This document shows positions 61,535 through 64,000 of a stretch of 64,000 nucleotides of DNA, one piece after another. Each line of letters begins with the position of its first letter. The stretch's first letter is position 1. The notes beneath the pieces were generated by a model that saw nothing but the letters and a program-made list of their open reading frames with translations, was not told the origin of the DNA and did no database searches. Where the stretch lies: NCBI RefSeq assembly GCF_014697355.1, contig NZ_JACJRQ010000001.1:186001-250000 (forward strand), written 5' to 3'. The stretch comes from Nostoc calcicola FACHB-3891 (lineage in GTDB: Bacteria > Cyanobacteriota > Cyanobacteriia > Cyanobacteriales > Nostocaceae). Made by a program: the position numbers and the translations under genes.

Positions 61535-61732
61535 TTACCACCAGCGTCTGCGCCAACCCCAACCGCCACCCCAGCCGCCACCCCAGCCGCCACCCCAGCC
61601 ACGGCCCCAGCCGCCGCCCCAACCACCGCGGCCCCAACCGCCGCCGCCCCAGTTCCCTCCAGCTAAAAGCTCCTGTTGCTCTGTGGATAGCTCGACAAGC
61701 AAATCAGACGGAATAGTTTTATTTGAAATCAT
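61535..61732 (-). CDS. Double-glycine-leader precursor peptide with Trp/Gly/Arg core
   Basis: 65 residues from ATG 61732 (GAGG 6 nt upstream; ATG 61735 also possible). Leader MISNKTIPSDLLVELSTEQQELLAGG ends in the Gly-Gly site used by C39-type ABC exporters. The predicted 39-residue core begins NWGGGGWGRGGW and contains 11 Trp, 5 Arg and 22 Gly, ending WRRRWW. No Cys, Ser or Thr, so lanthionine or thiazole modification is impossible. The leader is nearly identical to that of the gene at 62696. It could be a cationic, Trp-rich membrane-active bacteriocin; this is inference. Confidence 0.82.
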   Translation of the reverse strand: MISNKTIPSDLLVELSTEQQELLAGGNWGGGGWGRGGWGGGWGRGWGGGWGGGWGGGWGWRRRWW

Positions 61733-62695
61733 CATGCACCTCACTTGCTTAGTTAACTTGAAAAAAATATGGAGGTGATACAAATAAATGTGGTTCTTCA
61801 GTACTTGTTATGGTGAACTTCTAATTAAGCATCAGAACTTGACTTGAAAATCAAGGCTAGAAGCCTAAATTTCGCCCCCAAACATTAAATGCTAACAATC
61901 GCGGCTGTTATTATTGCCCAGCGGGGTCTCAAGCTTTTTTACAGACGTATTAGCACCAGAAATAATGAAGAGCCATAAATGTTGAAATAAACATCAACAT
62001 GTGCCACCTCTTATTTATTATTAAGAACCAATTTTTATCTAAATTAACTATTCTAAGGTGGTAAAAAAATTAGCTAAATATCTAACTTTTGGCTCATTTT
62101 TAATAGTCTTGAAAGTTGGATGAAAATTTTAGGAGCGTACTCTGCTGTTGTTTTTATTGTGTAAGGATTCAGGTTAGCAAGAGTTGACAGAGATAACAAG
62201 ATGGGAAAGCATCAATTTTATGAATAATAAAGTGCCGCCACAGGAAAGCAATGAGGGACTTTACCAATTATCTTGTTATAAAGTTATAACTCAAAAAGCT
62301 AAAATGCATTTTTTATTCTTCGATCGAGTTATTTTATTATATTTATAAATCAGTAGCACCTATACTGGTAAAATACCTTTATAGGTGCTAAATTAAAGCT
62401 GCGCTATTGAGTTATACAATCAAAAAATTGCTAGTCAAGTAGCTAAAATTATTTGCACATAGGGTAAGAAAGAGAAACAAAAAAGTAAGTGCGACCCCTA
62501 ACATCTACTTTTCCGATCTCTGGTCTATTGATTTAATGTCTTGAGAGGACATAGTAGACCGGCTAAACTCTCTCCAACTCTGATTTACCTTGAGTGAGCT
62601 ATGTGAGTTTGCTTCTTCTCTAAGAATTGCAAAGTTTAAGTTACAAGACTAGTCACTAATTAGATTTTAGAGACCGACACTGACTATAAGCCAGA
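61733..62695. other. Spacer between peptide genes
   Basis: About 960 bp, AT-rich. I found no further copy of the leader sequence. A 42-codon plus-strand frame (62220-62348) has no ribosome site. Each peptide gene has a GTGAGGT motif just before its start, so they may be translated independently and have their own promoters. Confidence 0.5.
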
Positions 62696-62887
62696 TTAGT
62701 CTCTCTCACCTATTTCGACCTTTTCGGCTTTCCCCTTGTAGTAGAAGTCCTCACCTTTAGGAAACAAGAAGAAGTAGCCTTTTTTGAAGTATTTGCCTTC
62801 TTTTCCTTCTTTTCCTCCAGCCAGAAGCTGTTGTTCTTCTGTGGATAGCTCCACAAGTAAATCAGACATAACGATTTGATTTGACAT
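62696..62887 (-). CDS. Double-glycine-leader precursor peptide, Lys/aromatic core
   Basis: 63 residues from ATG 62887. Leader 'MSNQIVMSDLLVELSTEEQQLLAGG' (25 residues) shares 'DLLVELSTEQQ/EEQQ-LLAGG' with the peptide at 61535. The predicted core (38 residues) is Lys/Gly/Phe/Tyr-rich (KEGKEGKYFKKGYFFLFPKG...) and ends in a charged tail. No Cys. Same class as CTB-family bacteriocin precursors of cyanobacteria. GAGG is 11 nt upstream of this ATG. Confidence 0.8.
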   Translation of the reverse strand: MSNQIVMSDLLVELSTEEQQLLAGGKEGKEGKYFKKGYFFLFPKGEDFYYKGKAEKVEIGERD

Positions 62888-63229
62888 AGTTTTTGACCTC
62901 ACTTACTTCTATAGATGTTGTACACATATGCACGACAAACATACATATGTGTTATACACCTATGCTTTCAGTTGTAAACTTATGTTTTACAATTTAAATG
63001 CCCCTAAAGTTATAAATAAAAAAACTAAATTTATAACTTTCAACTGATGGAAACTGTATTCTAAATGCAAATAAACTTTTATCATTATGAAGATATAGGA
63101 ATCCTCAATTATGGGTAAAAAAATTATTGCATATTTTCTTTGTATTCCTGTATACTAGTGTTACCTCATCGATAAAAAAGGAAAGCTAATTTATAGTTAT
63201 AGAGACTCGATTGAAGATGTCTAGACAAC

Positions 63230-63255
63230 CATTAGTTTTTCTGGAAAAACTAATG
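63230..63255 (-). terminator. Perfect hairpin after the third peptide gene
   Basis: 11-bp stem CATTAGTTTTT / AAAAACTAATG with a 4-nt loop, 1 bp after the stop codon of the minus-strand gene at 63257. Likely ends the exporter-peptide transcript. Confidence 0.75.
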
Positions 63256-63256
63256 T

Positions 63257-63574
63257 TTATGAAAATAAGCCACTTAAAAAATTAGCTACAAAATTATTTA
63301 ACATATTTCCAACTTTCATGGAGGAGGGTATTTCTGATGCGATTGAATATCCTATCGTAGTTTGTGACAAATTATATCCAGTTTTTTGTGATGACATATC
63401 ACCATTTGAAAGTTTTAAGTTACTATATGCATCAGTTTGAATGCTCGTTTGCTGAATGATAAAGTTGCTTGTGCTTAGTATATTTATGCTTTGTCCAGCA
63501 CATGAGGCCTCCTGTTCTTGTTCAGACAGTTCGCTAAGCAATTCAGAGTTGTCAGATTTGGTATTTTCAGACAT
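63257..63574 (-). CDS. Bacteriocin-type leader protein next to ABC exporter
   Basis: 105 residues. Leader-like start 'SDNSELLSELSEQEQEASCAG' matches the pattern of the other two peptides (LL-x-ELS-x-x-E/Q-Q-E) but ends in Cys-Ala-Gly, not Gly-Gly. The rest (QSINILSTSNFIIQQTSIQT...) is Ser/Thr/Asn/Ile-rich with a hydrophobic end (GNMLNNFVANFLSGLFS). It lies 30 bp after the exporter gene, so it is probably its co-transcribed cargo. Whether it is cleaved is uncertain. Confidence 0.72.
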   Translation of the reverse strand: MSENTKSDNSELLSELSEQEQEASCAGQSINILSTSNFIIQQTSIQTDAYSNLKLSNGDMSSQKTGYNLSQTTIGYSIASEIPSSMKVGNMLNNFVANFLSGLFS

Positions 63575-63604
63575 AGTTTTATCTTCTCGCAGTGATTAAA
63601 ATTT

Positions 63605-64000
63605 TTACAGTGACAAAAACTTTAAATGCTCTCCTGGTTGAGAGAGAAAAGTTTCTGGGGTACCTTGTAATTGCACCTGACCTTTGTCTAGTAACACGAT
63701 CCAATCAGCTCGATTAATAACACTAGGACGATGAGTGATTAAAATCGTAGTTTTGCCTTTTCGGTATTCCAAAAGCCGATCTAGTACATGAGATTCACTT
63801 ATTGGATCGAGTCCAGCAGTGGCTTCATCTAAAATTAGTACAGGTGGATTAGTGAGGATGCCTCTGGCGATCGCCAAGCGTTGTCTTTGTCCACCAGAGA
63901 GATTTGCTCCAAATTCTCCTAAAACAGTTTGATATTTATTTGGAAGTTGACTGATAAACTCGTCTGCATCAGCTATCTGGCAAGCTTTGACAATTTCTTC
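63605..64000 (-). CDS. ABC exporter, C-terminal ATPase part (runs off window)
   Basis: Only the last 131 codons are present; the frame is open to the window edge. Seen: 'VLGEFGANLSGGQRQRLAIARGIL' (ABC signature), Walker B 'PVLILDEATAGLDP', H-loop 'TILITHRPSVI', and a late 'DKGQVQLQGTPETF'. This is the fused-domain (MsbA/HlyB/SunT-like) type. With three leader-peptide genes directly downstream I infer a peptidase-containing bacteriocin exporter; the C39 peptidase and membrane domains would lie beyond 64000. Confidence 0.9.
   Translation of the reverse strand, partial: EEIVKACQIADADEFISQLPNKYQTVLGEFGANLSGGQRQRLAIARGILTNPPVLILDEATAGLDPISESHVLDRLLEYRKGKTTILITHRPSVINRADWIVLLDKGQVQLQGTPETFLSQPGEHLKFLSL

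Follow-up and report, generated by a model that had tools for sequence, protein, structure and literature searches.

Cyanobacterial clusters in which a short-type C39-ABC exporter and an HlyD protein accompany several double-glycine precursors with little core conservation have been described as group III bacteriocin clusters (Wang, Fewer, Sivonen 2011, PMC3140520), in a study that predicted 290 cyanobacterial precursors as bacteriocins. In Synechococcus elongatus, the small GG-leader proteins EbfG1-4 are secreted with the aid of PteB, a C39 exporter that requires its Cys for this, and the system is connected with biofilm and amyloid (PMC4997328, PMC9981879). According to the first of these papers, from 2016, the function of such small cyanobacterial proteins was unexamined before the EbfG work, and mature EbfG1-4 have no homology to proteins of other cyanobacteria (PMC4997328). 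HetC of Nostoc PCC 7120 is a C39-ABC exporter in a heterocyst former. Here, we describe a locus at the end of a 64,000-nt stretch of the Nostoc calcicola FACHB-3891 genome (contig 1, positions 186001-250000, in a 9.03-Mb genome; "the window"). Its exporter has two separable cargo sets: the CTB and A precursors, which are largely kept and lost as a pair, and a downstream array of precursors with common leaders and unrelated cores. We consider it probable that this is a dedicated type I peptide-export locus, whose peptides most likely serve the producer's own surface or matrix.

By gene content, the cluster has the known group III organization: the exporter combines C39, ABC membrane and ATPase domains without CAP_ED, HlyD is encoded in the cluster, and neither LanM, SurA nor a second ABC protein without a peptidase was seen among the 17 open reading frames (ORFs) of at least 80 aa in a 19-kb read-on stretch around the locus (L009; window position = L009 position + 61000). 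Six of these proteins were scanned against Pfam and the others judged by eye. New here are the constant chromosomal position in Nostocaceae, the division of the cargo into two sets, the family to which A belongs, the joint loss of A and CTB, and a 5' element, features undescribed in the available part of PMC3140520. Several precursors also stand beside one exporter in EbfG1-4/PteB (PMC4997328); this is a likeness of layout, and the accessible part of that paper reports no two-set layout.

Exporter and Leader Peptides

All genes of the locus lie on the minus strand, in the 5' to 3' order CTB precursor, HlyD, exporter, A, D1, D2.

61535-61735, minus: precursor D2, likely start ATG at 61735; leader MMISNKTIPSDLLVELSTEQQELLAGG and a 39-aa Gly/Trp/Arg core with 22 G, 11 W, and 5 R
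61739-61746, minus: ribosome-binding motif AAGTGAGG of D2, with no clear palindrome there
62696-62887, minus: precursor D1, likely start ATG at 62887; leader ending in DLLVELSTEEQQLLAGG, then a 38-aa Lys/Glu/aromatic core FKKGYFFLFPKGEDFYYKGK
62897-62940, minus: 5' element of D1, a degenerate palindrome followed by GTAAGTGAGG at 62897-62906
63257-63574, minus: peptide A, likely start ATG at 63574, about 30 nt past the exporter stop; leader MSENTKSDNSELLSELSEQEQEASCAG, then a conserved 78-aa core
63605-64000, minus: 3' end of the C39-ABC exporter; whole gene L009:2605-4806, to window-equivalent 65806
66048-67556 (window-equivalent of L009:5048-6556), minus, outside the window: HlyD gene
68652-68930 (window-equivalent of L009:7652-7930), minus, outside the window: CTB precursor, the fourth leader gene

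Scanning genome contigs with the exporter found 237 relatives. The best 80 were kept, which biases the sample toward close kin; among these 80, Desmonostoc geniculatum HA4340-LM1 (98%) is the nearest. The comparisons use 56 loci (the L009 locus, L027-L079, L093, and L096). Another 25 (L080-L092, L094, L095, L097-L106) were set aside, none of them having the flanking genes.

A first-pass annotation of the window had noticed three minus-strand leader peptides behind an exporter running off the edge. Beyond position 64000 the exporter is complete, with a C39 domain, and the HlyD gene and the fourth leader gene stand upstream of it. It is a 733-aa protein with Peptidase_C39 (PF03412), ABC_membrane (PF00664), and ABC_tran (PF00005) in one chain; these are its sole families above gathering score, and no N-terminal CAP_ED is found. 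Cys33, His109, and Asp125 are invariant in 56/56 loci, Asp125 standing for the catalytic Asp of the C39 family. Catalytic Cys and His residues are described for C39 peptidase exporters (PMC10986499). Alignments with ComA and the solved peptidase-exporter 4ry2 cover almost the full length of the exporter, though the best E-values belong to half-length matches to P-glycoproteins. The HlyD protein has HlyD_3 and HlyD_D23 domains (PF13437, PF16576). An exporter of lipid or polysaccharide was considered and rejected: the ATPase fragment alone fits HepA/MsbA models best, but the whole protein has the C39 domain, its best NCBIfam models being NHLP-peptide and HlyB-type exporters, both under their cut-offs. 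Export of several peptides by one peptidase exporter is established for C39 exporters, and the intact catalytic residues therefore suggest multi-peptide export here. Secretion of the locus peptides, as the first-pass annotation had read it, is very likely, given these residues and the HlyD partner.

The motif LLxELSxxxQ is present, as first noticed, in all three window peptides (LLVELSTEQQ, LLVELSTEEQ, LLSELSEQEQ); two leaders end in LAGG and the third reads ASCAGQ. The two LAGG genes are duplicates at the DNA level (77% over 98 nt, ribosome-binding site included). A search with the model of CTB-family bacteriocins, proposed as a check, found matches below the cut-off: NF038167 ("CTB family bacteriocin") matches the leaders of all three window peptides weakly, at 23.9, 30.1, and 18.0 bits against a cut-off of 32, and D1 and D2 match just the first 22-23 of its 72 positions. 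In contrast to D1, D2, and A, the fourth precursor passes the cut-off (66.5 vs. 32 bits). An NCBIfam scan to E = 1 gave NF038167 alone for the three peptides and no NHLP/N11P leader; the library includes nitrile-hydratase and Nif11 leader models. A leader HMM built from 15 seeds of these same loci was run on six-frame ORFs of the L009 locus and the 80 exporter relatives. Its matches of at least 15 bits number 297 on the exporter strand vs. 6 on the other, a bias that argues against a chance resemblance of the leaders.

No modification enzyme, of lanthipeptide or cyanobactin type or otherwise, was seen among the L009 ORFs of at least 80 aa, which extends past position 64000 what had been noted for the window. 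That the products are modified peptides (ribosomally synthesized and post-translationally modified peptides, RiPPs) tailored by an enzyme encoded elsewhere in the genome is very improbable. In cyanobacteria, precursors encoded far from their enzymes are known (PMC3140520), and the CTB and A cores are Ser/Thr-rich; against this stand the absence of Cys from all four cores, the missing enzyme in L009, and leaders that match NF038167 and no other model.

Two Cargo Sets

Leader genes occupy three positions relative to the exporter: upstream (U), adjacent (A), and downstream (D). U genes are of CTB type with a conserved core (48 rows aligned), and U leader matches reach eight per locus (L035 and L041, one of those in L041 being a fragment). 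The A gene, mostly 30-100 nt past the exporter stop, encodes a second conserved-core family. For the 41 rows of its alignment, a Q-x-T-x-[IL] motif and more than 85 aa were required, and L042, L097, and L105 were added (L056, L061, L063, L071, L082, L083, L087, L089, L092, and L095 were left out), and the invariance of Q41 is therefore partly by choice; that of Q21, G27, and Q71 is unaffected by row selection. Of these rows, 39/41 match NF038167 at E ≤ 1, and any single Pfam family matches 2/41 at most. Across the family, the A profile matches 121/217 genomes and the CTB profile 145/217 (E ≤ 0.001; partly via the leader). The A profile also matches 13 sampled genomes outside the family (25/291 in all). 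A second, more distant A-like gene lies elsewhere in five family genomes (L132-L136; 63-77 bits), so that A has paralogous lineages.

The array is of a different nature. D genes number 127, in 52/56 loci, and over 115 within-locus pairs the cores have a mean identity of 29% (27% for shuffled cores), against 61% for the leaders. The claim of three unrelated cores thus stands for D1 vs. D2; it must be qualified for A, a conserved family, and for D1, since the D1 core recurs in L027, L038, and L042, D1 being identical to that of L027. Certain core themes are found again in several loci. Where the downstream sequence extends for 3 kb or more (49 loci), a composition rule identifies a Gly-aromatic core in 28, and it is the last gene in 24/28. 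On the assumed cleavage sites, the predicted average masses are 4557.1 for the D1 core, 4216.5 for the D2 core (predicted pI 12.0), 6439.9 for the CTB core, and 8433.3 for the A core. Among the 13 deeper loci L080-L092, some on short contigs, U is found in 12, A in 9, and a D match in none. In L083 (Hydrococcus rivularis), five upstream leader genes and an A peptide stand without a downstream array match, which suggests that U plus A is the older layout.

The A and CTB genes are kept and lost jointly. With a 60-bit minimum for the profile score and a span rule applied to the 56 loci, both were present in 37, neither in 17, CTB alone in 2 (L063, L072), and A alone in none (Fisher p = 1.7e-12); intact copies from these very loci supplied the profiles, so that a very divergent copy would count as lost. 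Without the span rule, 60/60 thresholds gave 37, 16, 2, and 1, respectively, and over 16 threshold pairs A-only loci ranged over 0-6 and CTB-only loci over 0-3 (p 2e-7 to 4e-13). A quick exporter tree yields, on its supported branches, 7 independent pairs, of which 5-7 are concordant and none discordant (sign test p 0.016-0.0625, median 0.031); the reverse-direction test gave 5-6/7 concordant, none discordant, and again a median of 0.031. One deletion cannot explain the co-loss because hlyD and the exporter lie between U and A and no exporter span has a stop codon. Several of the losers, e.g., L033, L047, L053, and L093, still show remnants of CTB or A. Array leaders persist in 16 of the 17 loci lacking both A and CTB (the exception is L053), and therefore the exporter seems to be retained for the array. 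With array leaders in 52/56 loci and A plus CTB in 37/56, the leaders do have homologs near related exporters, as the first-pass annotation had required.

The 5' Element

Ahead of many U and D genes stands an element made up of TAGGTG-loop-CACCTA and, about 5 nt on, GTAAGTGAGG; the start codon follows after a further 9 nt or so. An exact GTAAGTGAGG is found in the last 40 nt before 39/76 U, 35/126 D, and 0/36 A genes (0.1, 0.0, and 0.0 after shuffling). The whole pattern is present in 71/217 family genomes, the reversed pattern in none of the 217; among 388 genomes of the class it was found in 11, all of them among the 24 of the family (0/364 others). Copies were collected from L009, L027-L106, and L151-L200. 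Of 79 distinct copies, 77 have a leader-type ORF within 15 nt by rule, and the other two precede leader genes by eye, one of them decayed (L066). In L151-L200, an HMM rule found a leader of at least 10 bits after 49 of the 57 copies, a count that includes some repeats; the eight misses comprise four wrong start choices and four lower-scoring GG-type leaders (L181, L182, L193, L199). In L193 and L199, the element precedes precursors with another leader (NELFSQMSxEEAATxSGG) and a short Gly/Ala-rich core.

In the Nostoc calcicola genome the whole pattern stands once, ahead of the CTB gene of this locus. Within the window, D1 has GTAAGTGAGG with its degenerate palindrome, and D2 AAGTGAGG only. The locus holds three copies of GTAAGTGAGG: before D1, before CTB, and at L009:7016-7025 (window-equivalent 68016-68025) between HlyD and CTB, before no leader gene. 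The adjoining L009:6970-7016 resembles L009:1534-1580 (70% over 47 nt), and this copy is possibly what remains of a lost precursor. An orphan leader gene (MSKQKSTLDLLVELTTEEQQFLSGGQDTPEGP...) with GTAAGTGAGG ahead lies at G000:C34:133932-134031, and a scan of this genome lists no exporter match on contig 34.

The palindrome lies 5 nt from GTAAGTGAGG in 62 copies, 6 nt in 15, and 4 nt in 2, and this fixed distance to the ribosome-binding site, together with the variable loop, suggests that the element works in the mRNA. Covariation gives mixed results: it exceeds shuffles in the D-type set and not in the U-type set, and RNAalifold predicts no pairs on alignments of the 44-nt element, on which the covariation checks were made. 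With longer flanks, the U type gives -19.3 kcal/mol with the ribosome-binding site mostly paired; folding z-scores of ten copies range from -0.07 to -3.60. The element would thus act as an RNA hairpin or as a DNA operator, the sequence pattern suggesting RNA. The motif ACUCCUCACAC of Yfr1 (PMC2190773) was tried as a partner and set aside as a weak lead, since it matches GUGAGG over 6 nt only and has 12 genome copies vs. 7 for its reversed control. The word bacteriocin is absent from PMC6778093. Rfam gave no match in L009:1-9000 at gathering thresholds, and the open-access titles and abstract openings listed contained no account of the element, the A/CTB co-loss, the two-set layout, or the A family.

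A tentative extension, which we hold as somewhat doubtful, is that the element, probably acting in the mRNA, is a switch peculiar to this family that places the exporter's cargo genes and orphan cargo genes under one control, that CTB and A form an obligate two-part beta-rich extracellular assembly, and that the array is exchangeable decoration; if so, this would be a coordinated secreted-peptide surface system and not a bacteriocin. The DNA signature marks precursor genes and locates orphan ones distant from the exporter.

A control element common to the precursors would also fit cell-to-cell signal peptides acting in the filament, for differentiation or density. Heterocyst differentiation cannot proceed without HetC, also a peptidase exporter and one whose substrate is not known (PMC10986499). 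Yet HetC has an N-terminal cyclic-nucleotide-binding domain that the exporter of this locus lacks, the cores are long (38-78 aa) and low-complexity or beta-rich, the element is confined to one family in the sample, and the A/CTB pair is absent from 17/56 loci. A signaling role is, on this evidence, improbable.

Chromosomal Address, Selection, and Function

The locus keeps a stable chromosomal address in Nostocaceae, since at least one of two flanking genes recurs in 53/56 loci (exceptions L031, L039, and L056; some contigs are too short to judge). A cytidylyltransferase-like gene lies upstream in 44/56 and an alpha/beta hydrolase gene downstream in 34/56, as counted by eye. At this locus, the upstream neighbors are this cytidylyltransferase-like gene (by eye, without a Pfam match), YidD (Pfam), and YchF (by eye); downstream are the hydrolase (Pfam) and, all by eye, thioredoxin-like, PyrH, and Frr genes. 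These neighbors are housekeeping-like. A plasmid collection queried with D1 alone gave no match.

The dN/dS ratio was estimated for 21 chosen close locus pairs (20 with an exporter value), a crude measure that averages over sites and over pairs sharing loci; the estimate omits 4 D and 2 U genes for which no partner reached 50% core identity. The ratio is 0.07 for the exporter, 0.33, 0.29, and 0.37 for the U, A, and D cores, and 0.29, 0.40, and 0.22 for the respective leaders. The precursor frames are thus genes under constraint, as judged from sequence, and arms-race selection finds no support in this averaged measure. Compared with the nearest relative, D2 has another repeat number (65 vs. 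56 aa, counting from the second ATG), and CTB differs in its tail. AlphaFold2 predicts for A a long two-stranded beta hairpin (34-54, 60-79; pLDDT about 86-88 over residues 41-70) and for CTB two strands (27-39, 62-74). A pore-forming hairpin was considered for A and is unproven: the stems of pore proteins in Foldseek all have E > 0.1, and the strands are not clearly two-faced across the alignment. Among solved chains, a profile search produced a single match, "T6 light chain" (0.013), which is at chance level.

These observations can be brought together in a mechanism. The C39-ABC exporter would cut the common leader after Gly-Gly (or Ala-Gly), and the cores would leave, without enzymatic modification, through the exporter and HlyD together with a TolC-type channel, for which a gene at another place is assumed. 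CTB and A, a conserved pair, probably act jointly outside the cell, and the array would supply a fast-changing set, here one Lys/aromatic and one Gly/Trp peptide. The palindromic element fused to the ribosome-binding site probably sets joint expression of many CTB and array genes, and A is probably read together with the exporter. The peptides most likely belong to the producer's own surface or matrix (sheath, aggregation, biofilm), like EbfG1-4/PteB.

The main rival is a classical bacteriocin locus, whose cores would kill related cyanobacteria or other bacteria and whose variety would mean a broad spectrum. The NCBI family name points that way, as do the hypervariable array, with cores that vary within and between species, and the membrane-active look of its cationic Gly/Trp and Cys/Arg-rich cores; a CTB operon of Nodularia, a possible counterpart only, is induced in phosphate starvation and discussed as allelopathic (PMC9846622). 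This reading is nevertheless unlikely: no immunity candidate was seen among the neighboring ORFs of at least 80 aa, six of them scanned against Pfam and the rest judged by eye, the address is fixed, the cores are under purifying selection by the crude measure above, and the one function-tested cyanobacterial system of this general kind that was found makes biofilm matrix (PMC4997328, PMC9981879). The first-pass annotation had favored action against neighbors or between cells of the filament; the fixed address, the purifying selection, and the EbfG/PteB precedent speak no less for the surface or matrix of the producer itself. When the paired loss, the Ser/Thr/Asn/Gln/Gly-rich beta cores, and the Gly-aromatic repeats are added, this role appears somewhat more likely than that of a bacteriocin.

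Several points weigh against this explanation as a whole. The matrix role rests on analogy with EbfG, and the cationic Gly/Trp cores would also suit membrane-active bacteriocins. The pairing of CTB and A is not absolute, since L063 and L072 have CTB without an intact A and, depending on thresholds, 0-6 A-only loci appear without the span rule. AlphaFold2 confidence is modest (pTM 0.37 for A, 0.41 for CTB), and Foldseek gave no solved fold at E ≤ 0.001 for either. GTAAGTGAGG alone has 13 copies in the genome vs. 12 for its reversed control, and one of the copies in the locus is not followed by any leader gene.

One exporter, two separable cargo sets, and the genetic prediction that CTB and A work jointly make the locus a tractable unit, one that can decide between killing and a role at the producer's own surface for such peptides. 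The short Gly-Trp and Gly-Tyr peptides may be of interest as materials or antimicrobials; no earlier account of glycine-rich secreted peptides of Nostoc was found in open-access titles and abstract openings. A second CTB cluster in the same genome (G000:C12:10348-12243) has five tandem CTB genes (82-90 bits) and stands about 2 kb before another match to the ATPase end of the exporter (C12:14376). In two near-copy contigs of Mastigocoleus testarum (L090, L091), a 641-aa protein with an N-terminal GG-type leader ends about 1.8 kb before the exporter, and a leader of this type may therefore also serve large proteins.

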